This document shows, one piece after another, positions 25,363 to 39,355 of a stretch of 64,000 bases of DNA. Origin of the DNA: Alsobacter soli (GTDB lineage: Bacteria; Pseudomonadota; Alphaproteobacteria; Rhizobiales; Beijerinckiaceae). The notes beneath the pieces were generated by a model, which worked only from the letters and a program-made list of their open reading frames with translations, was not told where the DNA came from and ran no database searches. A program made the translations under genes and the position numbers. Every line of letters starts with the position of its first letter. The stretch's first letter is position 1. Location of the stretch: contig CAMCXA010000006.1 of NCBI GenBank assembly GCA_945883115.1, positions 1 through 64,000 on the forward strand, read 5' to 3'.

Positions 25363-26313
25363 ATGCACATCATATCCGCCGATATGATCGATCAGGCTCT
25401 CGATCCCGTAACCTTGGCAGATGCGCTGGCTGATGGCTTTCGCTCGGATATCATCCTCCCCCTCCGCCATCATCACGACATTGAACGCACATCGCAAAAT
25501 GCAACGCTTCTCCTGATGCCTGCATGGACCGGGAAATCCGCGACACCCGCCTATCTCGGCACCAAGATCGTGACGATTTTTCCAGGCAATGGCGCTCTCA
25601 ATCTCCCCAGCGTCTACGGCACCTATCTGCTGCTTGACGGCAACACCGGTGCGGCACTGGCTGCCCTTGATGGAACACGGCTGACACTATGGCGCACCGC
25701 TGCCGCTTCCGCCCTCGCCGCCCGCTATTGCGCCCGCCCCAACGCGACGCGCATGGTGATGGTCGGGGCCGGCGCACTTGCGCCCTTTCTGATCAAGGCG
25801 CATTGCGCAACGAGCCCGATCAATGACGTCGCCTTGTGGAACCACAAGCCGGAAAAAGCGGTCGCTTTGGCTAACACACTTCGTGCCGAAGGACTTCCGG
25901 TTCGCGCGGTCACCGACCTCGAACACGCCGTCCGCGAGGCGGATATCGTCTCGAGTGCCACCCTCTCTACCCAACCCCTCATTCTTGGTGCCTGGCTCCG
26001 GCCCGGCATGCATATTGACTGCGTCGGCGCGTTCAAACCATCCATGCGCGAAACAGATGACGCCCTCGTTCAACGCGCAACCTTGTTCTGCGACACGCGA
26101 GAGGGCGCGATGAAAGAAGCCGGTGACTTTTTCCAACCCCTCGCTGCCGGAATCCTCAAGCCTGAGGATGTGAAAGCGGATTTATTCGACCTCGCCCGCG
26201 GAACACATCGGGGCCGCTCGAGCCCTGACGAGATTACGATGTTCAAATCAGCCGGAACGGCCATTGAGGATCTAGCCGCAGCCATCCACATCTGGAACCG
26301 CGTTAACGCCTGA
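25363..26313 (+). CDS. Ornithine cyclodeaminase / mu-crystallin family protein
   Basis: A 316-residue NAD(P)-dependent enzyme. YLGTKIVTIFPGNGALNLPS, YLLLDGNTGAALAALDGTRL and TLWRTAAASALAARY are the family core, and MVMVGAGALAPFLIKAH is the Rossmann loop. Activities in the family include ornithine cyclodeaminase, alanine dehydrogenase and delta1-pyrroline-2-carboxylate (ketimine) reductase. The last would complete the trans-3-hydroxyproline pathway started by the dehydratase at 839-1906, but this is inference. AAGGA lies seven bases before the ATG. Its place before trpF is shared with relatives. Confidence 0.82.
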   Translation: MHIISADMIDQALDPVTLADALADGFRSDIILPLRHHHDIERTSQNATLLLMPAWTGKSATPAYLGTKIVTIFPGNGALNLPSVYGTYLLLDGNTGAALAALDGTRLTLWRTAAASALAARYCARPNATRMVMVGAGALAPFLIKAHCATSPINDVALWNHKPEKAVALANTLRAEGLPVRAVTDLEHAVREADIVSSATLSTQPLILGAWLRPGMHIDCVGAFKPSMRETDDALVQRATLFCDTREGAMKEAGDFFQPLAAGILKPEDVKADLFDLARGTHRGRSSPDEITMFKSAGTAIEDLAAAIHIWNRVNA

Positions 26314-26342
26314 TATGATAGACAATTCGCGTCCCTCATGCG

Positions 26343-27038
26343 ATGAAACCATTAATGTCGGTCATCGTTAAAATCTGCGGAATTAAAACGGTAGAAGCCC
26401 TCTCGGCCGCGCTCGATGCGCGTGCGGATATGGTCGGCTTTGTGTTTTTCCCGCGCTCCCCGCGTCATGTCGAACTCGATCAAGCCGCTACTCTCAGTGC
26501 ACTCACGGGAACCCGGTCGGCAAAAGTCGCTCTCACCGTCGATGCATCCGATGAAACCCTTTCCGCCATCATCGACGCGCTCAAGCCCGACATTCTTCAA
26601 TTGCACGGTCATGAAACGCCGGAGCGAACTGCCGAAATCCGCTCCCGCTTCGGCATTCCCGTTATGAAAGCCCTCGGCGTGGCGTCAGTCGCCGATCTTT
26701 CCGACGTCAAAGCCTATGAACAGGTAGCCGATCGCCTCCTTTTCGATGCCAAGCCTCCCAAAAATGCCGCCTTGCCAGGAGGCAACGGGCTGGTTTTCGA
26801 TTGGCAGATTCTTTCAGGTCTTGACCTTACCAAGCCATTCATGGTGTCAGGGGGACTTGATCCGTCCAATGTCGCAACCGCTCTCGCAATGACTGGCGCT
26901 CCCGGCGTCGATGTGTCATCTGGAGTGGAAACAACACCCGGCATCAAAGACCCGTCAAAGATCAAGGCTTTCATCGCCGCCGCAAGAGGCTTCAACCCGC
27001 ACAGATCACCGCGCAACCAAGAGGATAAAGTGTCGTGA
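26343..27038 (+). CDS. trpF: Phosphoribosylanthranilate isomerase
   Basis: A 231-residue TIM-barrel enzyme of tryptophan synthesis. [12 protein letters not shown] carries the catalytic Cys, [15 protein letters not shown] the phosphate-binding strand, [10 protein letters not shown] and the Asp-containing LLFDAKPP are typical, and [16 protein letters not shown] and [20 protein letters not shown] close the barrel. A second ATG four codons in (26355) is also possible; neither has a strong ribosome site. Its stop overlaps the trpB GTG by four bases. Confidence 0.95.
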
Positions 27039-28255
27039 CACTACAGCAGACGCTCAACTCGTTCAGAACCGGACCGGACGAAACCGGCCATTTCGGCCAG
27101 TTCGGCGGCCGTTTCGTCGCTGAAACGCTAATGCCACTCGTCCTGTCGCTCGAAAAAGCCTATGCCGAGGCAAAGGCCGATCCGCACTATCAGGGCGAGA
27201 TGAAATCCTACCTCACCCATTATGTCGGTCGCCCGAGCCCGCTCTATTTTGCCGAACGCCTCACCGAACATGCTGGCGGCGCGAAAATCTATCTGAAACG
27301 CGACGAGTTGAACCACACCGGCGCACACAAAATCAACAATGTGCTTGGCCAGATCCTGCTTGCCATGCGCATGGGCAAAACCCGCATCATCGCCGAAACC
27401 GGCGCCGGCCAGCACGGTGTTGCAACTGCAACGGTTTGCGCCCGCTTCGGCCTGAAATGCATCGTCTATATGGGCGCGGTCGATGTCGAGCGCCAGAAAC
27501 CAAACGTGTTCCGTATGAAAATGCTTGGTGCCGAACTCATCCCCGTCACGTCAGGGTCGAAAACCCTGAAAGACGCGATGAACGAAGCTCTGCGCGATTG
27601 GGTCACGAATGTCGCGGATACGTTTTATTGCATCGGCACCTCAGCCGGTCCGCACCCCTATCCGATGATGGTGCGTGATTTCCAATCCGTCATCGGCACG
27701 GAAGCCCGCGCCCAGATGATTGAGCGCGAAGGTCGCCTACCTGACTCCATCATCGCCTGCATCGGCGGCGGCTCAAACGCGATCGGCCTATTCCATCCCT
27801 TCCTCGATGATCCGTCGGTCGAGATTTATGGCGTCGAGGCCGCCGGTCACGGCGTTGCATCCGGCCTTCATGCCGCATCGCTAACGGGCGGTCGTCCCGG
27901 CGTTCTGCACGGCAACCGCACCTATCTGCTGATGGATCCTGATGGCCAGATCGCTGAAGCGCATTCGATTTCGGCGGGCCTAGATTATCCCGGTATCGGC
28001 CCCGAGCATTCCTGGTTGCATGACATGGGGCGCGTCAAATATATTTCCGCAACCGATCAGGAAGCGCTCGACGCCTTCCAGCTGCTCTCGAAACTCGAAG
28101 GCATCATTCCCGCGCTCGAACCCGCTCACGCGATCGCGCGTGCCGTCGAGATCGCCGCGACCAAGCCGAAAGATCATCTCATGATCGTCAATTTGTGCGG
28201 TCGCGGCGACAAGGATATCTTCTCGGTAGCTGAACATCTGGGAGGCATGGAGTGA
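27035..28255 (+). CDS. trpB: Tryptophan synthase beta chain
   Basis: A 406-residue PLP enzyme joining indole and serine. The PLP lysine lies in [15 protein letters not shown], with [20 protein letters not shown] and the phosphate-binding [15 protein letters not shown]. It starts with GTG in a four-base GTGA overlap with trpF, and overlaps trpA the same way, so the three are translationally coupled. TrpB channels indole from TrpA. Confidence 0.97.
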
Positions 28256-29088
28256 CCACGCGCATCGACACACGCTTTGCCAAACTTGGCGCTGAGGGAC
28301 GCGCCGCTCTTGTCACCTTCGTGATGGCCGGCGATCCTGATCCGGCCACCTCGCTTGCAATCATTAAGGCTCTTCCAGCAGCAGGCGCCGACCTTATCGA
28401 GATCGGTATGCCGTTCACCGACCCGATGGCCGATGGCCCCGCTGTTCAAGCGGCAGGATTGCGTGCGCTAGCAGCCGGCGAAACATTGGCCGGAACACTC
28501 AAGCTTGTCCGCGAGTTCCGCGCCGGCGATCAGTCAACGCCGATTATCCTGATGGGCTATTACAATCCCATCTATATTTATGGCGTTGACCGTTTTCTCG
28601 TCGATGCAAAATCTGCAGGAATTGACGGCTTGATTGTCGTTGATCTCCCTCCCGAGGAAGACGACGAATTGTGCAAGCCTGCTCTCGCGGCCGGCCTCAA
28701 TTTCATTCGCCTCGCAACGCCGACAACCGACGATGCCCGTCTGCCCAAGGTGCTCACCAATACGTCAGGCTTTGTCTATTATGTATCGATCGCCGGCATC
28801 ACCGGCGCTACAACACCTGATTTCGGCAAGGTTGCAACGGCCGTTGCGCGTATTAAATCACACACAAATCTCCCGGTTGCAGTTGGGTTTGGCGTCAAAA
28901 CCGCCGCTGATGCAGCTGCCATTGCAGCTGGTGCGGACGGCGTTGTTGTTGGTTCGACACTCGTCGACGCGGTTCGTCACTCATTGGACGCAAACGGCAA
29001 GGCAACGGCAAAGACGGTTGAGTCCGTTGTTGCACTCGTAAAAAATATCGCTTCGGGCGTCCACTCGGTCGCTAAGCCGAAAAAATAG
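28252..29088 (+). CDS. trpA: Tryptophan synthase alpha chain
   Basis: A 278-residue TIM-barrel lyase releasing indole from indole-glycerol phosphate. Catalytic Glu is in [17 protein letters not shown] (with the nearby Asp), and [14 protein letters not shown] supplies the catalytic Asp. [20 protein letters not shown] is the phosphate-binding end. The GTG start overlaps the trpB stop (GTGA). accD follows after 20 bases, as is usual. Confidence 0.96.
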
Positions 29089-29108
29089 ATCCGGCAAGGA
29101 AAGTCACC

Positions 29109-29984
29109 ATGGAAACGATGAACTGGATTTCAAACGTTGTCCGTCCCAAAATCAGGTCGTTCCTGAAACGGGATACGCCACAGAATCTCTGGATCAAATG
29201 CCCCGAGAGTGGACAGCTCGTTTTCAGCAAAGACGTCGAGGCCAATCAATATGTGATCCCAGGCTCCGACTATCATATGCGAATGTCAGCCGTGATCCGC
29301 CTGAAATCAATGTTCGACGGCGGCACCTTCGAGGATATCGCGCTTCCGGAAGTCCCTTTGGATCCGCTGAAATTCCGCGATGAAAAGCGCTATGTTGATC
29401 GTCTGCGGGACGCCAAAACAAAAACCAGCCTCGTCGACGCGATCAAGATCGGCGTCGGTACCGTGGAGGGGCAAACAGTTACCATCGGGGTTCAGGACTT
29501 CGACTTCATGGGCGGTTCCCTTGGCATGGCGGCAGGTGAAGCGGTCATCCGCGGACTTGAAACGGCAACCGCTCGCAAAACGGCTTTTATTATGTTTGCC
29601 TCGTCTGGCGGTGCTCGGATGCAGGAAGGCATGTTCTCGCTGATGCAGCTTCCGCGCACGACTGTTGCGGTTCAGCGTCAACGTGCTGCAGGGCTTCCCT
29701 ACATCGTTGTTCTCACAAACCCGACAACAGGCGGGGTCACAGCCTCCTACGCGATGCTCGGCGATATCCATATTGCAGAGCCGGGCGCACTGATCGGCTT
29801 TGCCGGTCCGCGCGTTATCGAGCAAACCATTCGCGAAAAACTGCCTGAAGGGTTCCAGCGGTCCGAATACCTCAAGGATCACGGCATGGTCGATATGGTT
29901 GTTCATCGGCACGAGCTGAAAGCAACGCTAGCGCGCTTGTGCCGTATTCTTTCCAATACGAAGCCAGCGAAAAAAATCGCCTGA
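29109..29984 (+). CDS. accD: Acetyl-CoA carboxylase carboxyltransferase subunit beta
   Basis: A 291-residue carboxyltransferase that, with AccA, moves CO2 from biotin to acetyl-CoA to make malonyl-CoA. The core blocks [36 protein letters not shown] and [16 protein letters not shown] are intact. The N-terminal zinc ribbon is degenerate: only Cys31 (KCPESGQ) of the four expected cysteines remains, the others being Ser34, Ile50 and Ser53. Loss of these cysteines is seen in other Hyphomicrobiales AccD, so the gene need not be damaged. AAGGA precedes the ATG. Confidence 0.95.
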
Positions 29985-29989
29985 CGCCC

Positions 29990-30013
29990 TCCCTCCTTAC
30001 GTTCACGGAGGGA
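29990..30013 (+). promoter_or_regulatory. Stem-loop covering the ribosome site of the next gene
   Basis: TCCCTCC, ten-base loop, GGAGGGA. The right arm is the strong Shine-Dalgarno sequence of the oxidoreductase gene at 30021, so the hairpin would hide it. No T run follows, so it is not an intrinsic terminator. Confidence 0.5.
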
Positions 30014-30020
30014 ACAAAAA

Positions 30021-31163
30021 ATGCATAAGGTAGGGCTTACAATGAGAGACATCGGCATCGGTATCATCGGCACCGGCTTTATGGGCAAATCTCATGGCTT
30101 TGCCTACCGAGCGGTAGCGGGACAATTTCCCGTCGCACGCAATCCCGTTCTTGAAATGGTGGCCGATATCAATCTGGAGACAGGTGCCGCTGCCCATCGT
30201 CAATTGGGCTTCAAGCGCGTGACCACGGACTGGCGTGAACTCGTCAATGATCCGAAAGTCGAGATCGTCTCCATTACATCACCCAATCTCTTGCACCGTG
30301 AAATGGCGCTCGCCGCCATCGCAGCAGGCAAGCATGTTCATTGCGAAAAGCCGCTTGCGCCTTCCGCCGACGACGCGCGTGTGATGATGGAAGCGGCTGA
30401 AAAGGCCGGTGTACGGACCCAAGTCGGCTATAATTACATCAAAAATCCGATCCTCAAACTCGCCAGAGACATGGTTGTATCTGGCGAACTTGGAGACATT
30501 ATCGGTTTTCGCGGCATTCATGCCGAGGATTACATGGTCGATCCGACAGGGCCGTGGAACTGGCGCGTTGACCCGCGCGGTGGTGGCGGCGCGGTCGCAG
30601 ACCTCGGCAGCCATATCATCGGCATCGCCCGTTTTCTTATTGGCCCGATTGTCGAACTCTCTGCCGAGCTTGAGACAGTCGTCAAAGAGCGCCCCGTTTC
30701 TACCGGCTCAACCGAGCGACGCAAAGTCGAAGTCGATGATGTTGCCCGCCTGACATTACGTTTTGAGCGCGGATGCACAGGATCCATCGAAGCAAACTGG
30801 GTTGCAACCGGACGAAAAATGCACCTTGGTTTCGAGCTTGCGGGAACGAAGGGATCGCTCGTCTTTACGCAAGAGCGCTTCAATGAACTTCAATACTATA
30901 AAGTGGGTGACGATCCGCGCCATGCCGGTTTCACAACGATTGAAGCCGGTCCCGCCCATTATCCTTACGGTCTGTTCTGCGTAGCACCCGGACACCAGAT
31001 CGGGTTCAACGATCTGAAAACCATCGAGGTTGCCGAATTTCTGGCATCCATTGACGGTGGCCCTGTCCTGGGACCGGACTTTCGCGAGGCTTGGGAAATT
31101 CAAAAAATTGTGGATACAGCCATTGCCGCGTCAAAAGACCGGATTTGGCATAAAATACCCTAA
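30021..31163 (+). CDS. Gfo/Idh/MocA-family oxidoreductase
   Basis: A 380-residue NAD(P)-dependent sugar or polyol dehydrogenase-like protein. GIGIIGTGFMGKSHGFAYRA is the Rossmann loop and HVHCEKPLAPSADDARVM holds the family's EKP motif with the catalytic Lys. GAVADLGSHIIGIARFLIG gives the DxGxHxxD-like active-site motif, here ending in Ile-Gly-Ile rather than Asp. GGAGGG lies eight bases before the first ATG, favouring it over the ATG seven codons in. Substrates are varied (inositol, glucosides, amino sugars) and cannot be assigned. Confidence 0.85.
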   Translation: MHKVGLTMRDIGIGIIGTGFMGKSHGFAYRAVAGQFPVARNPVLEMVADINLETGAAAHRQLGFKRVTTDWRELVNDPKVEIVSITSPNLLHREMALAAIAAGKHVHCEKPLAPSADDARVMMEAAEKAGVRTQVGYNYIKNPILKLARDMVVSGELGDIIGFRGIHAEDYMVDPTGPWNWRVDPRGGGGAVADLGSHIIGIARFLIGPIVELSAELETVVKERPVSTGSTERRKVEVDDVARLTLRFERGCTGSIEANWVATGRKMHLGFELAGTKGSLVFTQERFNELQYYKVGDDPRHAGFTTIEAGPAHYPYGLFCVAPGHQIGFNDLKTIEVAEFLASIDGGPVLGPDFREAWEIQKIVDTAIAASKDRIWHKIP

Positions 31164-31169
31164 ATTGGC

Positions 31170-31574
31170 CTATTTACCGGCTGTCATGATCAATTGCAGA
31201 TAGCAGATCCTGCGTTTAAACGTGCGACTTTCATTATACTCATAGATCACCAACCTTGGTCGGTCCGCATGCGGTCGCTCTACCTTAACCGCAATTTCAT
31301 CCGGCAAGAGGATTCCAATATGCCGAAGCGCCCGATGGGCATCGTTCTCGATTTCCACGAGCAATCCACGGTCGACCCAGCAACGCGCAAGCACTGCACC
31401 CAGATAGTGGAGGATTTTTTCCCGAATATCCTTTGAGTCAATAACGATCTCGATCGGGGGCTCTTGCTTGAAATTATTGGAAGCACCTGGCTCGGGAAAC
31501 TCGTGAACAACCAGCTCACGACTCTCACTGGGAACAATTGCCGGTACCCCGCCAGAATACGCGCTCTTCAGCAT
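31170..31574 (-). CDS. Small protein with nitrile-hydratase-like leader peptide (NHLP) similarity
   Basis: A 134-residue protein of unknown function. Residues ~59-108 follow the NHLP / nitrile hydratase alpha pattern (AWxDPxFxxxLLxDPxxALxxLGIxxP) with identical spacing: LARCWVDRGLLVEIENDAH, then RALRHIGILLPDEIAVKV, then LVIYE. NHLP domains act as leader peptides for ribosomally made, modified peptides or occur as stand-alone homologues. The 20-residue tail after LVIYEYN (SRTFKRRICYLQLIMTAGK) has no double-glycine cleavage site. The ATG at 31574 has AAGGA nine bases upstream and is preferred to the ATG at 31583. No modification enzyme or exporter is adjacent. The similarity is by eye. Confidence 0.6.
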   Translation of the reverse strand: MLKSAYSGGVPAIVPSESRELVVHEFPEPGASNNFKQEPPIEIVIDSKDIREKILHYLGAVLARCWVDRGLLVEIENDAHRALRHIGILLPDEIAVKVERPHADRPRLVIYEYNESRTFKRRICYLQLIMTAGK

Positions 31575-31686
31575 AGTCCCCATTCCTTCATCTTAATTTT
31601 CTTCAGGAGACTAATTTCACAAAGTTAAAAACTACGCAAGAAAATTTAGAATTTATTAAATATTTCCGACCACGTTTTTCTTAAAG

Positions 31687-31702
31687 CTGAAAGTCCTTTC
31701 AG
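31687..31702 (-). repeat. Short palindrome just after the 78-residue gene
   Basis: CTGAAAGTCCTTTCAG lies 3 bases after the stop codon of the gene at 31706-31942. It is a six-to-seven-pair hairpin with no T run, so at best a weak terminator or processing site between the two small genes. Confidence 0.4.
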
Positions 31703-31705
31703 AGC

Positions 31706-31942
31706 TTAGTTCAACAACATCACATCTGCGTGGGCTGTACGAAACAGGCCAGCCCTGTAATTGATCATCACATATTCGATATTCGTCGTGTTAGGCTTAA
31801 TACTGACAGGTATTGACTGACCAAGGGCGCCAAGCGAAAGCATGACCCCATCAGATATTCCTTTTGCTTGAGAGGCGTTGGCACAGTGAATGTCGATTTT
31901 ATCAATTTTTCCAAAAAACAAATCTCTCAGCATATTCGGCAT
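31706..31942 (-). CDS. Small protein of unknown function, possible degenerate NHLP-like paralogue
   Basis: A 78-residue protein, no family recognised with confidence. GGAGAG lies five bases before the ATG, which supports a real gene. The C-terminal half, SLGALGQSIPVSIKPN then YVMINY, has the same I-x-V-x-(V/I)-x9-(L/V)-(V/M)-I strand pattern as the NHLP-like protein encoded next on the same strand (IAVKV ... LVI). The N-terminal half lacks the W-x-D helix motif. The pair lies 131 bases apart in a visibly AT-rich pocket. It could be a precursor-like or regulatory paralogue. Confidence 0.5.
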   Translation of the reverse strand: MPNMLRDLFFGKIDKIDIHCANASQAKGISDGVMLSLGALGQSIPVSIKPNTTNIEYVMINYRAGLFRTAHADVMLLN

Positions 31943-32104
31943 AATGTCTCTCCATAAGCCGGCAAAATATCTGCCGTATTTATCATCGCTTCTTGACTAG
32001 CAAGGATCATGCCCCGAAATGCTTTTTGCCGGTTGAAGCGCGATTAAATTTGCGAGGGCGCCAACAGCTTGCAATTCTATCCGTCCCTATGCGACATCGA
32101 ACAA

Positions 32105-33631
32105 ATGTCACGCGCCACTCACCCAGAAATACCACGCTTCCCGTCCGGGAATATCTTCGGCTTTGTCGGGATTGTGACGGCAATTCGGCTGGTCGTCGCT
32201 GCCTTTGCACCGCTGACCGGCGATGAAGCCTATTATCGTCTCTGGTCGCTCTATCCCAATTGGGGCTATTATGATCATGCGCCCATGGTCGCCTGGTGGA
32301 TGGCGCTTGGCAGCGCACTTTTCGGAGATACGACCTTCGCGCTAAGGTTTCTGGCCCCCGTCTCGGCAGGTATCGGCTCCCTTTTCCTGTGGCGAACAGC
32401 AGCTCTTTTGCTCGACCGCCCGTCAGCCGATCGAACAGTAATCTGGTTCAATGCCATGCTGATCGTCGGCGTCGGCAGCATTGTCATGACACCCGATATT
32501 CCCTCGGTCTTTTTCTGGGGCATGGCACTTTGGGCGCTTGCGGAAGCGAACAGATCTCGAAAAGACGTTTGGTGGCTTCTCGTTGGTATATCCGCAGGGT
32601 TGGGAATCCAGTCGAAATATTCCGTTCTGTTTCTTGGCCCGGGCATCCTGCTCTGGCTCGCCCTTATCCCCGCAAACCGGTTCTGGCTTCGGCGGTGGGG
32701 CCTATGGACGGGTGGAGCTATCGCTGCCCTTGTCGCAAGCCCACTCCTCTATTGGAACGCGACCCATGAATGGGTTTCCTTTCTGAAACAATTCGGGCGC
32801 ACAGTGCCGAAAAGCTGGAGCTTGCAATATCTTCCAGAATTTATCGGCGCGATGCTCCTCTTGATGACACCGGTCATTTTTGGCTTTGCCCTCATCGGAT
32901 TGTTCAGGGCTGGGCGACTTTCCCTCGGCGGAAACTCAAAACTGGCCCTTCCCGTCCTGACAAGCTTTCCATTCCTCATCTATCTCGTCAGCCATTCCCT
33001 ACATGATCGCGTGCAGGGTAATTGGCCAGTCCCGATGATGCCCGCCTTTGCAATTCTTGCCGCCTTCGCCGCTAGCCTGATCGTCAACTCCACAACATCC
33101 GCGCGATGGAAAAAACAATGCGTCAAGGTCGCGGCGCCGCTGGGTTTCATTCTCTCGACGCTTGTTGTTCTCGAAGTCCTGCGTCCTTTCCTGCCAATCG
33201 CGACATCCGTCACGCCGCTTGCCGAAATGCGCGGCTGGGCGGGGTTTGCACAAGAAGTAGATCAGCGGAGAAAAGCCTCGAGCGCCGCGTGGGTGGCTAC
33301 ACTCTCGTACACCGAAACCGGCCAACTTGCCTTTCAACTCGATCACATCGCCCCTGTAATCCAGATTGATCAGCGGATGCGCTATGTGTTTGCGCCCGAA
33401 CCGGATCCCGCACTCATCAACGCAGCCGGACTGCTTGTTGCACCCGCTTCGAAAGCGGAAGCCTATCGTTCACGCATGAAACACTGCAATGTACAGTTCG
33501 AACCGCTCGGAACGCTTGACCGGAAGGATCACAACATCAAGCTTGAAACCTATGCGCTCTTTCGGATCACGGGTGCCAAGCTTGAACCGAGCCTCCCGCC
33601 ACGCGGGAAGAGCAAACGAGAGTGTCCGTGA
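32105..33631 (+). CDS. Glycosyltransferase family 39 (ArnT/PMT-like) membrane protein
   Basis: A 508-residue integral membrane glycosyltransferase of the GT-C fold. After the first membrane segment comes APLTGDEAYYRLWS, with the catalytic acidic residue of the GT39/ArnT type, then YYDHAPMVAWWM. About ten to eleven membrane segments follow and a soluble C-terminal part (residues ~380-508). Such enzymes move a sugar from a polyprenyl-phosphate donor to lipid A, protein or glycan on the periplasmic side. The acceptor is unknown. The frame extends to a TTG at 32069, but the ATG at 32105 is taken as the start. It converges on the alcohol dehydrogenase gene (22-base gap). Confidence 0.82.
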   Translation: MSRATHPEIPRFPSGNIFGFVGIVTAIRLVVAAFAPLTGDEAYYRLWSLYPNWGYYDHAPMVAWWMALGSALFGDTTFALRFLAPVSAGIGSLFLWRTAALLLDRPSADRTVIWFNAMLIVGVGSIVMTPDIPSVFFWGMALWALAEANRSRKDVWWLLVGISAGLGIQSKYSVLFLGPGILLWLALIPANRFWLRRWGLWTGGAIAALVASPLLYWNATHEWVSFLKQFGRTVPKSWSLQYLPEFIGAMLLLMTPVIFGFALIGLFRAGRLSLGGNSKLALPVLTSFPFLIYLVSHSLHDRVQGNWPVPMMPAFAILAAFAASLIVNSTTSARWKKQCVKVAAPLGFILSTLVVLEVLRPFLPIATSVTPLAEMRGWAGFAQEVDQRRKASSAAWVATLSYTETGQLAFQLDHIAPVIQIDQRMRYVFAPEPDPALINAAGLLVAPASKAEAYRSRMKHCNVQFEPLGTLDRKDHNIKLETYALFRITGAKLEPSLPPRGKSKRECP

Positions 33632-33653
33632 TCGCCTCGTCAGTCTGCCCCGA

Positions 33654-34817
33654 TCAGAGCTTGCCCGAATAAGTCGCCTCATAGAGCGCGTGTGCACTTT
33701 TTACATCAAGCGGCACGGGGTTCCCCCCCGCGGTTGGATCTTCCGGTGCCATCGCCGACATCAGCTCGAATTTGGTATTGTCGACGCCAAAATCCTTCAG
33801 CGTGTGCGGCACACCAAGTTGCTTCCGCAAATCGATAATCCACGCCATGAACGCCTCGAATGTCGGCGCAAGGCCGATATAAGCCGCAAGCCGCACGATC
33901 TTCGCCTCGATCGCGGCGCGGTTGAACTGCAATACATACGGCATGAAAACAGCATTCGTCATGCCGTGATGCGTATCATATAAAGCACCAACCGGATGCG
34001 AGAGGGCATGAATAGCCCCCAATCCCTTTTGGAACGCCGTCGCGCCCATCGCAGCTGCGGACATCATATTCGCTCGCGCCTCGATATCCGTACCATCCTT
34101 GAACGCCCGCACGAGGTTTTCCTTGACCAGTCTGATCCCCTCCACCGCGATCCCCTCGCCCATCGGGTGATAGAATGGCGAACAATAGGCCTCCAGGCAA
34201 TGCGCGAGCGCGTCCATGCCCGTGCCTGCTGTAATCTTCGGCGGCATGCCAACGGTCAGTTCCGGATCGCAGATCGTCACTTTCGGCATCATTCCTGGAT
34301 GGAAAATCACCTTTTTCGTATGCGTCGCTTCCTGTGTGATCACACCTGCGCGGCCCACTTCCGAGCCCGTTCCCGCAGTCGTCGGTACCGCGATCACCGG
34401 TGCAATCCCCTTCGGATCGGCCCGCGTCCACCAATCACCAATATCCTCGAAATCCCACATCGGACGCGTCTGTCCCGCCATGAAGGCGATCACTTTTCCC
34501 GCATCAAGCCCCGATCCGCCACCGAATGCGATCACACCATCATGCTTTCCCGCCCGCATCACCTCGAGCCCGGCATAGATATTCGACTCGACCGGATTAG
34601 GCTTGATCTCCGAGAACATCGCCCGGCCGAGCCCTGCAGCCTGCAGCGCATCCAAAACAGCCAGCGTCATCGGCTGTGTCGCCAGAAACGGATCAGTTAC
34701 CAGAAGCGGCCGCATGATCCCGTTGTTCTTGCAGAGCTTCGGCAACTCCGAGATTTTTCCTGCGCCAAAACGGATCGCGGTAGGGTAGTTCCAGTTGGCC
34801 GAATGTGAAGTTGTCAT
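33654..34817 (-). CDS. Iron-containing alcohol dehydrogenase
   Basis: A 387-residue group III alcohol dehydrogenase. NAD binding: VIAFGGGSGLDAGKVIAF and VPTTAGTGSEVGRAGVI. Metal ligands lie in GTGMDALAHCLEAYCSP, FQKGLGAIHALSHPVGALYDTHHG (two of the histidines). It oxidises a primary alcohol or reduces an aldehyde. It is last in a minus-strand set after an aldehyde dehydrogenase, a glutamine-synthetase-like ligase and an APC permease, so its substrate is probably an alcohol arising from that pathway. Confidence 0.92.
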   Translation of the reverse strand: MTTSHSANWNYPTAIRFGAGKISELPKLCKNNGIMRPLLVTDPFLATQPMTLAVLDALQAAGLGRAMFSEIKPNPVESNIYAGLEVMRAGKHDGVIAFGGGSGLDAGKVIAFMAGQTRPMWDFEDIGDWWTRADPKGIAPVIAVPTTAGTGSEVGRAGVITQEATHTKKVIFHPGMMPKVTICDPELTVGMPPKITAGTGMDALAHCLEAYCSPFYHPMGEGIAVEGIRLVKENLVRAFKDGTDIEARANMMSAAAMGATAFQKGLGAIHALSHPVGALYDTHHGMTNAVFMPYVLQFNRAAIEAKIVRLAAYIGLAPTFEAFMAWIIDLRKQLGVPHTLKDFGVDNTKFELMSAMAPEDPTAGGNPVPLDVKSAHALYEATYSGKL

Positions 34818-34868
34818 GATGATCTCGCAGAAAAGAGGAAAACAAAGGCGCCGTTTGACGACTTGAAA

Positions 34869-36251
34869 TCAGAGTGTCCTGAGGTGATAGCTCTTGGCAC
34901 GCGTCAGCATGTCATAGCCGATCTCGGAGAGGCTCACACCCCGTCCGGTATCCTTCACACCTGTCCACGCCAATGCAGGGTCAAGATAGTCGCAGCGGTT
35001 CATAAACACGGTGCCCGTCTCGATCTCGCGGCCCAGCGACGCAGCAGCAGCCTCGTCCGAGGTCCAGATCGCGGCAGTCAGGCCATAGGGGCTGTCATTC
35101 ATCAGCCGCACGGCCTCTGCATCATCCTTGACCTTCATAATACCAACCACAGGGCCGAAATTCTCCTCGCGCATCAGAGTCATCGAATGGTCAACGCCGG
35201 TCAGAACCTGCGGCATTAAATAGGTACCGCTCCCCTTGTCCGCCGGGAATAAAGCCGCATCAATATGCGCTTTCGCACCCTTGGCCACCGCTTCTTTCAC
35301 CTGCGCGCGTACAATATCCGCGCCCTTGGCCGTCGCCATTGGTCCGAGGGTTGTTGTCTCGTCCAGCGGATTGCCGAGCTTGTACGCCTTAGTCAGCGCC
35401 ACGAAGCCCTCGACAAAACGATCATAAAGACTTTCATGCACATAAATGCGCTCGATACCGCAGCAGCACTGTCCCGAATTGAAGAAAGCACCATCAACGA
35501 GATTTTCAACCGCATGATCAAGATTGGCATCTGCCCGCACATAGGCCGGATCCTTGCCGCCAAGTTCAAGCCCCAACGACGTAAACGTCCCCGCTGCCGC
35601 CTTTTCGATGGCACGCCCACCTGCAACCGATCCCGTAAAATTGCAATGGTCCACAGATCCCGATGACAAGATGCGCGCCGTGTCGTCATGCGTGAGAACA
35701 AGATTGGTAAAGAGCCCTTCCGGCATCCCCGCCACCTGCATCGCAGTCGCAAAGCGCTCCCCGACCAGAATGGTCTGCGCAGCCGCCTTCAGGATCACGG
35801 CATTGCCTGCCATCAGCGCCGGTACAACCGAATTCACCGCCGTCAAATACGGATAGTTCCACGGTGCCACAACCAGCACAACACCCAGAGGCGTCTTTTC
35901 GATATAGCGGGCGAAACCCTGTTTCTTCTCGGGTACAATCGGCGCTAACGCGTCGGGCGCAATCTTGATCATGTGACGGGCGCGCTCTTCAAAGCCGCGG
36001 AACTCGCCACCCCATTTCACGGGACGTCCCATCTGGATTGCGATTTCAGGCACGACTTCCTGGTTCATCGTCAGCATCGCGTCGACAAAAGCCGTAAGCT
36101 TGGCAGTACGCTCGGCGAGCGGAACTTTCGCCCAGAGCTTTTGCGCCTGACGCGCTGCCGCGAGAGCAGCCTCAATCGCTGCAGCAGAGGCCGAAGGCCG
36201 CCGTGCGACTTCGCGGCCATCAATGGGGGAGATGCAAAGAATGTCTGTCAT
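34869..36251 (-). CDS. NAD(P)-dependent aldehyde dehydrogenase
   Basis: A 460-residue ALDH-superfamily enzyme close to succinate-semialdehyde-type dehydrogenases. VVAPWNYPYLTAVNSVVPAL, GSVAGGRAIEKAA, LELGGKDPAYVRADAN (general-base Glu) and NSGQCCCGIERIYV (catalytic Cys in a Cys-Cys-Cys run) are present, plus REENFGPVVGIMKV near the C-terminus. It oxidises an aldehyde to the acid. It lies 51 bases upstream of the alcohol dehydrogenase gene, so the pair could carry an alcohol through to an acid. Confidence 0.93.
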   Translation of the reverse strand: MTDILCISPIDGREVARRPSASAAAIEAALAAARQAQKLWAKVPLAERTAKLTAFVDAMLTMNQEVVPEIAIQMGRPVKWGGEFRGFEERARHMIKIAPDALAPIVPEKKQGFARYIEKTPLGVVLVVAPWNYPYLTAVNSVVPALMAGNAVILKAAAQTILVGERFATAMQVAGMPEGLFTNLVLTHDDTARILSSGSVDHCNFTGSVAGGRAIEKAAAGTFTSLGLELGGKDPAYVRADANLDHAVENLVDGAFFNSGQCCCGIERIYVHESLYDRFVEGFVALTKAYKLGNPLDETTTLGPMATAKGADIVRAQVKEAVAKGAKAHIDAALFPADKGSGTYLMPQVLTGVDHSMTLMREENFGPVVGIMKVKDDAEAVRLMNDSPYGLTAAIWTSDEAAAASLGREIETGTVFMNRCDYLDPALAWTGVKDTGRGVSLSEIGYDMLTRAKSYHLRTL

Positions 36252-36274
36252 GGGAAGGTGGGCCTGTTTGTGAA

Positions 36275-36341
36275 AGTGGTTTTAGAGGCGAATAGCGAAT
36301 GATGAGTAGCGAATATTCGCCATTCGCGACTCCCCACTCGC
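36275..36341. repeat. Inverted-repeat sequence between GS-like and aldehyde dehydrogenase genes
   Basis: The 95-base gap contains GGCGAATA paired with TATTCGCC, repeated AGCGAAT units, and ACTCCCCACTCGCC at 36328-36341, which also occurs at 2095-2108. This is likely a second dispersed extragenic repeat family. Confidence 0.5.
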
Positions 36342-36346
36342 CCAGC

Positions 36347-37720
36347 TTAGATAATTTCAAAATACCGGGCCATTTCCCAGTCCGTAATCGCACGCCGGAA
36401 TTCCCGCTCTTCCCACTCGCGCGAGGCCGCATAATGCTCGACAAAAGCATCGCCAAACAGGGCCCGCCCGGGCTTTGAACCCTTCAACCGTTGCGCAGCT
36501 TCCCATAAGGTCCGCGGCAAAGCACGGCTCTTCGGCAGCTTCACATCATAGGCATTGCCGGTCATTGGCGCACCCGGCTCGATCTTGTTCTCAATCCCCC
36601 AAAGACCAGAACCAATCGCAGCGGCAAGTGCGAGGTAAGGGTTGATATCAGCAGCCGCTACCCGATACTCGATCCGTTGCGACTTCTCCGACCCCTCGAT
36701 CACACGCAGTGCCGTCGTACGATTATCCACAGCCCACGCCGAGTCCGTTGGCGCCCAGAACCCTGGGATCAGTCGCGTATAGCTGTTCACCGTGCAGGCA
36801 ACCATCGCCAGTAATTCGGGCATTAATTGCTGCTGCCCGCCGAGATACCAACGCATCGTGTCGGACATAGAATAGGGCTTGGACTTGTCATAAAACACGC
36901 CCTTCCCCGTCTTTTTATCCTGCAACGATGTGTGCAAATGTCCGGATTGTCCGGGCCAATCATGCGATGATTTCGCCATGAACGAAGCCATCCAGCCGCG
37001 CTTTTGCGCCAGAACCTTCGTGTAAGTCTTGAACAGCGCAGCCTTGTCAGCAGCCGCCATGGCCTCGTCGACCTTGATGGCCGCCTCCAGAACACCCGGT
37101 CCGGTTTCCGTATGCAACCCCTCGATCTCGAAGTCCATCTTCCGTCCAAGATCAAGCAAATCCCGATAGAAATCGGCATGCACAGAACTTCTCAGCATTG
37201 AATAGCCAAAAAACCCGGGCGTAATATTTTTCAAATTCTTGTAATTCTTTTCTCGCACCGAATGCGGCGTTTCCTCAAACAGAAAAAACTCGAATTCTGC
37301 AGCGGCACTCACCTTGAAGCCCATATCAGCCGCCTTCGCCAGAACACGCTTCAGCGTACCGCGCGGACAAACCTCTTCCCACTTCCCGTCAAATTCGCAA
37401 ATAAACAACGGCAGATCATCCTCGAAAGGGATCACACGCATCGTATCCGGCACCATGCGGACAGCAGCATCGGGATAACCCGTGTGCCAACCGGTTACCT
37501 TGGCATTATCATAAAGCTGGTCATTCGAATCCCAGCCGACAACCACGTCGCAAAAGCCCAACCCTTTCTCAAGGGCGCTCTCAAACTTGTCGCGATTGAT
37601 ATATTTTCCGCGAAAAACACCATCAATATCGAACAAACCCACCCGCACATAAGGCAAATCCTTCTCTCTGACATAGGCCAGAGCTTCAGCAGCAGATGTA
37701 ATGCGCGGTGGTGTGCTCAT
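36347..37720 (-). CDS. Glutamine synthetase family protein (gamma-glutamyl-amine ligase type)
   Basis: A 457-residue GS-fold enzyme. AAAEFEFFLFEE (metal Glu), GLHTETGPGVLEAAIK, SGHLHTSLQDKKTGKGVF, RLIPGFWAPTDSAWAVDNRT and RIEYRVAAADINPYLALAA are the active-site blocks. It lacks the adenylylation tyrosine loop of true nitrogen-regulated GlnA and resembles PuuA/GlnT-type ligases, which join glutamate to amines (putrescine, ethanolamine, isopropylamine) rather than ammonia. The flanking permease and dehydrogenases fit an amine-degradation route. The ATG at 37720 (GGGG nine bases upstream) is preferred to one at 37744. The amine cannot be named. Confidence 0.85.
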   Translation of the reverse strand: MSTPPRITSAAEALAYVREKDLPYVRVGLFDIDGVFRGKYINRDKFESALEKGLGFCDVVVGWDSNDQLYDNAKVTGWHTGYPDAAVRMVPDTMRVIPFEDDLPLFICEFDGKWEEVCPRGTLKRVLAKAADMGFKVSAAAEFEFFLFEETPHSVREKNYKNLKNITPGFFGYSMLRSSVHADFYRDLLDLGRKMDFEIEGLHTETGPGVLEAAIKVDEAMAAADKAALFKTYTKVLAQKRGWMASFMAKSSHDWPGQSGHLHTSLQDKKTGKGVFYDKSKPYSMSDTMRWYLGGQQQLMPELLAMVACTVNSYTRLIPGFWAPTDSAWAVDNRTTALRVIEGSEKSQRIEYRVAAADINPYLALAAAIGSGLWGIENKIEPGAPMTGNAYDVKLPKSRALPRTLWEAAQRLKGSKPGRALFGDAFVEHYAASREWEEREFRRAITDWEMARYFEII

Positions 37721-37747
37721 GATCATAAACCCCGTTGGAAACAAGCA

Positions 37748-37771
37748 CCGCGGGCGTCACCGCCCGCGGTT
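37748..37771. repeat. Strong intergenic stem-loop between permease and GS-like genes
   Basis: ACCGCGGGCG, loop TCAC, CGCCCGCGGT: a perfect ten-pair GC stem in the 78-base gap (taking the start at 37720). No T run follows on the minus strand. Probably an mRNA-stabilising or partial-termination element that lets the permease and ligase be expressed at different levels. Confidence 0.65.
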
Positions 37772-37798
37772 AAAATAATTGCGCGATTGCGCCTAGGC

Positions 37799-39355
37799 TC
37801 AGTTTTCGCCGACCGCCGCTTCAGCTTCCTTGATCGCAGCCTGCCGCTTGGCAATCATATCCCCAATAGGTGGACCTTGGAAACGACGGTTTTCAAACAG
37901 GACCCAGACAACAATCATTAGGACAATGAATCCGACCGTGATTGCAAGTGCCCAATCATTTGGCGGTTGAATTCCAGCATAGAAGATGATCGCCATTGCA
38001 ATAAGCGAGAGGAAACCAACAAGCTTGAATGTTCCGCCGCCAATGCTCCACGGACCCGGCTTTGGCCATTTCGCTGTCCCATATGCAACAATGCCGAGTG
38101 CAATCGGCAACGCGAAGGAGAGGAACAGGAAAATCACGGTGCATGAAACGACGATCGAATAAGCCGGCGTTCCAGCGATTGTGATGGCCGATGTCAGCCA
38201 GACGAACAGCACCGAAAGCGTCGATGCAACCCAGATGGAAGCAACAGGTGTCCGGAACGTGGGGCTAACCTTGCTCAAAAACCGTGGCAAGCCGCCATCA
38301 CGTGCAAAGGCAAACAACATGCGGGATGCTGATGTCACCGTCGCAAGGCCACATAGGAGTTGTGCGACAAAAATCGCAACATAGAGGACCATTTTCAGGG
38401 TTGGGTTTACTTGGGAGTCCATCGCCCAAAAGAACACGTTCCAGCCTTGCTTCGCAGCTTCGTCCATGTTCGGGATCATCAGGACGAATGCGCTCAGCAT
38501 CACCCATCCGAAAAGGCCGGAATAGATGACCGAATTGACCATGCCACGTGGAACGGCGGTGGCTGCAACTTTGGTTTCTTCTGCCGTATGTGCAGACGCG
38601 TCATATCCGGTAATCGTATAGACTGGCAGCAACAGACCAAGCACAAAAGCCATCAGTCCGCTAACGGCCACAGGCCATACGCCACTCGCACCTTCCGTGC
38701 CGGTATAGTTCGAGAACGTGTACAAGCGGGCAAAGTCGAGAGATGGCGCCGAAACCAGACAGACAACTGTCAAGGCGACCGCTGTGATCAGGATCAGATA
38801 GCCGGAGAAGTCCGTCAACTTCGCGGTCAATCGGATGCCGACGTGATTAATCACAACCTGAATAGCGGTAATCACGGCAACAAAAATTACCCGGTGCTGA
38901 AGCGTGTCTTCAATGCCGAACATCGCACCGAACGCACCGAAGAAGAAATAGAATGTACCGACGTTGATTGCGCCCAGAACGGTGATCAGTCCGAGAAGAT
39001 TCAACCAAGCCGACATCCAGCCCGTAAAACGGTTACCGAGGATGGAACCCCAGTGATACAAACCACCCGCAGTTGGATACGCCGAACTGATCTGAGCCAG
39101 TGCAAGCGCAAACATTCCGGAAAGGAGACACCCGACAGGCCAGCCGATCCCGATTGCAGCGCCACCGGCACCCGCGGTCGCCTGCCCGAGCGAATTGATA
39201 CCGCCCGAAAGAATGCAGATGATCGAGAACGAAATCGCAAAATTCGAGAAGCTGCTCATGCTTCTTTCGAGTTCCTGCGCATATCCCATCGAATGAAGGA
39301 CCTTCAGGTCTTCCTTCTTGTCCTTTTCGCCATAATCGGCATCAGACATTGACAT
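37799..39355 (-). CDS. APC-superfamily amino acid/amine permease
   Basis: A 518-residue transporter with about 12 membrane segments. The N-terminal LHSMGYAQELERSMSSFSNF and ISFSIICILSGGINSLG are characteristic of the amino acid/choline (GABA permease-like) branch. YTITGYDASAHTAEETKVA is the conserved loop before segment 7, and SASRMLFAFARDGGLP follows. It probably imports the amine or amino acid used by the GS-like ligase encoded next. The short cytoplasmic ends are charged. Confidence 0.9.
   Translation of the reverse strand: MSMSDADYGEKDKKEDLKVLHSMGYAQELERSMSSFSNFAISFSIICILSGGINSLGQATAGAGGAAIGIGWPVGCLLSGMFALALAQISSAYPTAGGLYHWGSILGNRFTGWMSAWLNLLGLITVLGAINVGTFYFFFGAFGAMFGIEDTLQHRVIFVAVITAIQVVINHVGIRLTAKLTDFSGYLILITAVALTVVCLVSAPSLDFARLYTFSNYTGTEGASGVWPVAVSGLMAFVLGLLLPVYTITGYDASAHTAEETKVAATAVPRGMVNSVIYSGLFGWVMLSAFVLMIPNMDEAAKQGWNVFFWAMDSQVNPTLKMVLYVAIFVAQLLCGLATVTSASRMLFAFARDGGLPRFLSKVSPTFRTPVASIWVASTLSVLFVWLTSAITIAGTPAYSIVVSCTVIFLFLSFALPIALGIVAYGTAKWPKPGPWSIGGGTFKLVGFLSLIAMAIIFYAGIQPPNDWALAITVGFIVLMIVVWVLFENRRFQGPPIGDMIAKRQAAIKEAEAAVGEN

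Follow-up and report, generated by a model that had tools for sequence, protein, structure and literature searches.

A predicted NHLP-fold protein recurring beside flagellar genes in Alphaproteobacteria and on phage contigs

NHLP (nitrile-hydratase-like leader) peptides are the closest described counterparts of the protein considered here. In RiPP systems they are described as rigid folded domains for protein-protein docking, which bind a YcaO enzyme partly via their folded helices, and another enzyme is reported to be independent of these helices (PMC12455567). The leader of MprE7 (8TB1) is described as a three-helix bundle with two strands, after which come a proline-rich segment, helix 4 and the core (PMC10858898). 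The conserved region of NHLP precursors is reported to end in a Gly-Gly cleavage motif; the family TIGR03795 is set apart from NHLP by its cleavage region, with motif 2 given as N/A, although the same paper elsewhere ascribes a cleavage motif (PMC2887384).

The window analysed here is a stretch of 64,000 nucleotides from Alsobacter soli (contig CAMCXA010000006.1). An initial annotation, made from the letters alone, described two minus-strand genes of 134 and 78 residues in an AT-rich pocket, each with a ribosome site. This physical description holds: both open reading frames are present, GC content is 46% over 31001-32000 against 55% in the flanking kilobase on either side, it is 30% between the two genes, and the sites AAGGA and GGAGAG are found. 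The features are as follows.

31170..31583, minus strand: gene of the predicted NHLP-fold protein, 137 aa from ATG 31583 or 134 aa from ATG 31574, stop included
31173..31214, minus strand: conserved C-terminal segment RRICYLQLIMTAGK, which holds most of predicted strand 3 and was first read as a possible core peptide
31173..31451, minus strand: predicted NHLP-fold domain, residues 45-137 (helices 50-70, 72-80 and 82-88; strands 97-105, 108-116 and 123-130)
31533..31547, minus strand: N-terminal motif VPAIV (family pattern [LVIM]P[AVILMST]), preceding a poorly conserved, low-confidence linker
31584..31588, minus strand: ribosome-binding site AAGGA, 9 nt before ATG 31574
31706..31942, minus strand: 78-aa partner gene, upstream of the NHLP-fold gene
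31948..31953, minus strand: ribosome-binding site GGAGAG, 5 nt before the 78-aa gene

ATG 31574 (134 aa) is the better start of the larger gene, as AAGGA is better spaced from it. Both genes are real because both are conserved, and their homologues rule out chance open reading frames. Positions 26343-31163 hold, by eye, trpF-trpB-trpA-accD and then a Gfo/Idh/MocA oxidoreductase, the oxidoreductase alone being confirmed by Pfam. Genus mates carry different genes downstream of the NHLP-fold gene, which indicates that the window locus is rearranged.

Likely remote relation to NHLP leaders and nitrile hydratase alpha

The larger protein was first noticed for residues at NHLP spacing (W1, D3, D13, A17-L18, G22-I23, P26), and this spacing is exact in the window protein. 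Across 29 aligned rows, W1, L18, G22 and P26 are invariant and D3, D13, A17 and I23 are variable. The profile search that had been proposed as a test gave a divided answer: the family as a whole matches NHLP, TIGR03793 matching 22/22 aligned members at E <= 1 (best 3e-6, all below the curated cut-off of 50.9 bits), whereas the window copy alone matches weakly (15.4 bits, E 0.012). Since all 22 members are matched, the shared spacing is more than chance. Tested singly, a distant member (L080) reached 23.4 bits (E 4e-5) and a phage member (L075) 25.5 bits (E 8.9e-6). These two and the window copy all miss the 50.9 bits, and by this cut-off the 134-residue protein is not a member of TIGR03793.

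When a 38-row profile was searched against PDB sequences, the best 8 of the 21 matches listed were nitrile hydratase alpha or the NHLP leader 8TB1 (E 0.0029-0.035), with 1V29 as the best nitrile hydratase alpha match (E 0.0029) over the helical segment. This segment is what the protein family has in common with nitrile hydratase alpha (TIGR01323, PF02979); the PF02979 model itself matches 1/22 members, at E 0.21. Unlike nitrile hydratase alpha, the window protein measures 134 aa and has no metal-binding Cys cluster: the CxxCSC motif is absent, and its cysteines are C68 and C127. TIGR03795 (BMA_0021/BMA_0022, NHLP-Burk) weakly matches 4/22 members, the best at 0.0018, and the window protein differs from it in having no C-terminal Cys, in the absence of YcaO from its carriers and in its gene context. 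The current NCBI models touching the larger protein are solely of RiPP or NHase type plus one unrelated model, all of them weak, and because these models are mainly of that type, members of the family could be misnamed RiPP precursors. Neither the window protein nor any of the 22 members matched a Pfam or NCBIfam flagellar model, and PHROGs gave no usable family match for 38 members.

The AlphaFold2 model of the larger protein has a mean pLDDT of 70, with block means of 74-90 over residues 41-130 and values below 50 over residues 1-37. The three-helix bundle and the strands b1 and b2 of the NHLP leader are present in it. Among the Foldseek matches scored with VIA-align, the proteusins 8TB1 (Z 5.2, 70 aligned, rmsd 3.5) and 9CJX (Z 4.4, 75 aligned, rmsd 4.0) rank first and second, and the next row stands at Z 3.8; the VIA-align lists for the models of both proteins re-score Foldseek's own matches, and families absent from these may also resemble the models. 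A plain Foldseek search found nothing at E 0.001 and had 8TB1 in tenth place. The structural match to NHLP leaders, at Z of about 5, is modest. Structure prediction had been named as a check on the fold; the model of the larger protein keeps the first five helix-strand elements of the leader and has proteusins as its top rows. The profile matches and the top structures agree on the NHLP / nitrile hydratase alpha character originally assigned to the 134-residue protein, and remote homology of this kind is likely.

Further down the same list stand T4 gp25 (5IW9, Z 3.5, 82 aligned) and 2IA7 (Z 3.2, 82 aligned), both covering the whole domain, as might be seen for a phage tail or baseplate structural or assembly protein resembling the gp25 fold. 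We consider such a role most improbable, as these Z values are lower than those of the NHLP rows and of a size that common arrangements reach, Pfam and PHROGs gave no useful match, and phage genes were not noticed by eye near the cellular copies.

The likeness to proteusin/NHLP leaders (TIGR03793, MprE7 8TB1) covers the W-x-D helix motif, the three-helix bundle and the first two strands. Beyond these elements the protein family has a third strand, instead of the proline-rich segment, helix 4 and core of MprE7. Positions G62, A66, W69, L86, G90, P94, R108, P109 and E115 are invariant in 29 rows from hosts, distant families and clade A phages, and the C-terminal strand follows Y-L-Q-x-x-M-x-A at >=90% in 29 rows. 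In a 22-row alignment, conservation reaches 90% or more, up to full invariance, at 12 of the last 14 positions. At the other end, [LVIM]P[AVILMST] occurs in 36/38 N-terminal segments against a shuffled mean of 8.9, for a pattern set after viewing the sequences, with hand-chosen starts and with shuffles that ignore kinship. The linker between this motif and the domain is poorly conserved. No signal peptide is visible in the 134-residue protein, which points to a cytoplasmic location.

This anatomy bears directly on the precursor role proposed at the outset. The tail once taken for a possible core belongs to the best conserved parts of the protein and makes up strand 3 in the domain model, a result that does not support a precursor role. 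Other early remarks stand: there is no Gly-Gly site, the conserved region running to the C-terminus, and no maturase was recognised next to the larger gene. The suggested whole-genome search for YcaO returned none in the window's own genome and none in 29 other carriers (0/30), and by eye no NHLM ABC exporter was recognised among the open reading frames of positions 26000-38000. The protein family differs from NHLP precursors in the missing Gly-Gly and variable core, in its flagellar or phage neighbours and in its score below the cut-off; a hypervariable Cys/Ser/Thr-rich core is not present, and the C-terminus is near-invariant. The relation to the NHLP domain of TIGR03793 would fit a stand-alone RiPP precursor that joins an NHLP leader to a conserved core and is processed by enzymes encoded at a distance, and conserved cores are known in some RiPP-derived cofactors. 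Such a precursor is very improbable, because the C-terminus is conserved as a predicted domain strand, Gly-Gly and YcaO are absent and the neighbours are often flagellar. On the basis of anatomy, gene context and YcaO, and of these alone, the 134-residue protein is probably not a RiPP precursor.

An NHLP-like open reading frame of another kind was seen in a same-order 7-Mb genome (L128:1441-2149; TIGR03793 E 6.7e-10), and the overlapping next frame is NHLP-like by eye. These two look more like ordinary NHLP-clan peptides.

Carriers, partner gene and flagellar neighbourhood

Homologues of the larger gene were found in 22/199 same-family genomes. A profile scan of named genome contigs gave 30 loci, whose titles name Alphaproteobacteria, Hyphomicrobiales, Rhizobiales or Beijerinckiaceae, against no match in a single-sequence scan. 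All but one of these titles (29/30) denote MAGs, and the remaining one is Rhizobiales bacterium TNE-4. The label Beijerinckiaceae as used below is partly broad, several record titles giving merely Hyphomicrobiales, Rhizobiales or Alphaproteobacteria. At class level, a profile search found the gene in 9/385 genomes and added four families (f60, f70, f155 and f160) with genomes of 1.4-2.8 Mb; within f160, 44/61 genomes carry it. The order-level search returned 1/297 genomes, the window's own, and the phylum-level search 2/378, namely the own genome and, weakly (E 3.7e-5), the same-order 7-Mb genome with L128. These counts suggest that the gene is rare outside the sampled carrier families. The window protein had no match in the plasmids of PLSDB, and a literature search for NHLP or nitrile hydratase together with flagella found no earlier description of an NHLP-fold flagellar-locus family.

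Four alignments were built: A1 with 22 rows (the window and 21 other same-family carriers), A2 with 38 rows (the window, 25/30 named loci and 12 of 16 viral loci), A3, for the 78-aa gene, with the window and 9 loci, made before all 18 named loci with that gene were known, and A4, a hand-chosen set of 29 rows used for the first tree. Over the domain, dN/dS was 0-0.06 in 7 host pairs and 0.04-0.13 in 7 phage pairs, with 2/16 pairs saturated and several dS values above 1. Selection on the domain is strongly purifying in hosts and phages.

The 78-aa gene accompanies the larger gene in many loci. A single-sequence search found its homologues directly upstream of the NHLP-fold gene in 7 other genomes, and a profile search placed it there in 18/30 named loci, that of L054 being weak (1.1e-7). 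By profile, it was found in none of the genus mates, g30 genomes, 8 distant genomes or 4 phage records, and none appeared in the viral contig scan. As no 78-aa gene was found in the genus mates, the window's species seems to have retained a pairing that its nearest sampled kin have lost. The smaller protein had been described as repeating the NHLP strand pattern, which was not confirmed: it has no NHLP match, no family match in Pfam, NCBIfam or the profile search, and its nearest structures are other folds. Its model has a pLDDT of 90.7 and a best Z of 5.9, with many ties of several kinds; many of the nearest rows are proteins that we take to be thioredoxin-like, and the window copy of this 78-aa protein has no CxxC.

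Flagellar linkage was scored by tblastn at 1e-6, counting flagellar genes within 11 kb. On this measure 13/30 named loci are linked, and these make up 13/17 informative Beijerinckiaceae-type loci outside the window's genus. The 17 named loci with no flagellar genes comprise 9 of the window's genus, four that are too short (L050, L053, L055, L060), and L048, L051, L054 and L059. Within the window's genus, none of 10 (the window and 9 loci, of which L044 was placed by synteny alone) has a flagellar gene within 11 kb, and none was found within that distance in g5 (L048, L054, L059) or L051. The flagellar cluster of the window's genome lies on another contig. At the TNE-4 locus (L112), a fli run, two sigma-54 activators and fliS are followed by flgE/F-motA-motB-78-aa gene-NHLP-fold gene, the last five on one strand; fliS, flgE/F, motA, motB and one activator were named by Pfam, FliG and FliP by search and the other fli genes by eye. 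A conserved gene beside the pair (L112:17292-18185) also occurs in several named loci; it is methyltransferase-like by eye and has no Pfam or NCBIfam match.

In the four other families, flgF, flagellin or motAB genes stand no more than 10 kb from the NHLP-fold gene. Of nine distant places, all but G491 were examined over a long stretch, and 8/8 long distant loci have flagellar genes within 11 kb. In f160 and f70 (L104-L108), the order is flgA-flgT-LPP20 lipoprotein gene-flhA-flhF-flhG-fliA-flgF-[NHLP fold]-Sel1, read for L105-L108 as tblastn counterparts of L104. All 12 short f160 loci, which are the best 12 matches among 44 f160 carriers and in which L115 repeats the place of L107, show flgF (or flgE/F)-[NHLP fold]-Sel1. 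The f155 locus (L110) has flgT, flgA, flagellins, fliS and motAB nearby, and a second, diverged copy (L109, 9742-10131; G783:C29) stands beside flagellin alone in a genome that also has a standard copy. In f60 (L103), motAB lie 8-9 kb away, an rpoN-like gene lies within 6 kb by eye, and bactofilin-like genes adjoin. The synteny in relatives that had been proposed as a check thus gives homologues recurrently beside flagellar genes, though not in the window's own genus, and this recurrent linkage extends across five taxonomic families.

The distant loci also recall Vibrio-type FlgT, FlgP and MotX, since they hold flgT, a flgP-like LPP20 lipoprotein gene and a Sel1 gene. MotX is described as a T-ring protein (PMC4960245). 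The Sel1-repeat neighbour is weakly MotX-like (E 0.013), and at this level MotX identity is not claimed for it. The NHLP-fold protein differs from MotX in its fold and in having no visible signal peptide. Two further genes of these loci are conserved. A 137-aa protein between fliA and flgF (L104:8275-8685) has no Pfam or NCBIfam match and has tblastn counterparts in L105, L107, L108, L115-L121, L123, L124 and L126. After the Sel1 gene, most distant loci encode a 78-aa 'MKVHWIIDG' protein (L104:10680-10913), which has no usable NCBIfam match.

FliG was found in 22/22 same-family carriers and in 130/177 non-carriers (hypergeometric 0.0018, with kinship ignored). It is present in 29/30 carriers tested, a 31st genome in the same set, G195, being a non-carrier. 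The one carrier in which FliG was not found, G591, nevertheless has flgA, flhA and flhF close to the NHLP-fold gene. As 130/152 FliG-bearing same-family genomes have no NHLP-fold gene, the gene is not required for flagella in general. Two FliG genes occur in the carriers G012, G053, G085, G156 and G182; in the three g13 genomes among them (G012, G053, G085), about 10 kb separate the NHLP-fold gene from one of the two.

These neighbourhoods could be historical, with the protein acting as a regulator or adaptor of something that travels with flagellar genes, such as cell polarity, envelope or cell cycle. In the window's genus, in g5 and in L051 the gene is not close to flagellar genes, its f60 copy has bactofilin-like and rpoN-like neighbours, yet also motAB within 10 kb, and its carriage by phages under constraint fits a broader host-control protein. 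Against this, linkage recurs with different neighbours in five families, and 29/30 carriers tested have FliG, with flagellar genes kept near the gene in G591. We therefore see a historical association as unlikely, while giving it more weight than the precursor and gp25-like readings above.

Copies in phages

Scans of IMG/VR gave 16, 17 and 26 loci, or 27 contigs in all with near-duplicates included. The T4 major capsid protein Gp23 was found in 6/17 viral records tested, many of them fragments. In one or another of three viral contigs, the gene lies near those for T4-type DNA polymerase, UvsX, a DnaB-like replicative helicase, tail tube and PhoH. The nearest cultured relatives of the Gp23 of one contig are a Stenotrophomonas phage (73%), Methylophilales phages (65%), and Pelagibacter and Sinorhizobium phages (64%). 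No match to the NHLP-fold gene was obtained among the cultured phages of INPHARED with three different queries. No flagellar genes were found near 17 phage loci, a sample that does not include L129-L138.

The phage rows in the trees form two supported clades, A (100/99 and 99/99) and B (96/90). A 100/100 split separates the distant families from the Beijerinckiaceae group, and both clades fall on the side of the latter. The neighbours tested in clade B match mostly PHROGs of unknown function. In the first tree (29 rows), clade A groups with the host row L059 among the Beijerinckiaceae rows at 87/89, below the starred level; the second tree, in which clade B and the distant rows have long branches, does not resolve this grouping. 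It is thus shown that at least two phage clades, several of their members T4-like, carry the NHLP-fold gene under strong purifying selection.

The 27 viral contigs, the two supported clades and the deep, divergent position of clade B would be compatible with a host-takeover protein born in phages and later domesticated by bacteria next to flagellar genes. Such an origin appears improbable, given the joining of clade A to a host row in the first tree and the cellular copies in five families with their repeated synteny. A precedent for action on host motility is the phage protein PIT4, which is reported to inhibit motility and to bind the kinases FleS, PilS and PA2882 (PMC10714779). The comparison is by description rather than homology, and in that description PIT4 is not presented as a host-derived flagellar-locus gene (PMC10714779).

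A possible flagellar accessory role

The reading we prefer is that the 134-residue protein is a stand-alone cytoplasmic NHLP-fold accessory factor of the polar flagellar system of some aquatic Alphaproteobacteria, and that phages use its gene on host motility. We place the probability of this reading at roughly 0.55. As a further and more tentative step, which we would sooner doubt than assert, T4-like and related aquatic phages may have captured a bacterial NHLP-fold flagellar gene to control the host's polar motor, with NHLP leader and flagellar adaptor representing two uses of one docking domain related to nitrile hydratase alpha. Confidence in both is held at these levels because the window's genus is unlinked, neighbourhood is not function, the structural match is modest and the exclusion of a RiPP role is narrowly based.

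As an accessory factor, the protein would act as an adaptor, its NHLP-fold domain docking on one flagellar protein and its N-terminal motif of the [LVIM]P[AV] type binding a second. The analogy behind this proposal is that NHLP leaders dock on their enzymes via the folded domain. The first candidate partners may be stator, rod/hook or regulatory proteins, since the gene usually neighbours motA/motB and flgE/F in the Beijerinckiaceae group, and flgF and a Sel1-repeat gene in the distant families. The 78-aa protein is its gene partner in many Beijerinckiaceae-group loci, and phages carrying the NHLP-fold gene would tune or stop host motility during infection.

These observations suggest that the NHLP / nitrile hydratase alpha fold, known as part of an enzyme and as a RiPP leader, also exists as a constrained, flagella-linked cellular protein. 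Such a protein bears on the origin of RiPP leaders. If the phage part holds, it would provide a directly testable case of viruses that carry a flagellar gene of their hosts and so steer the motility of aquatic bacteria.
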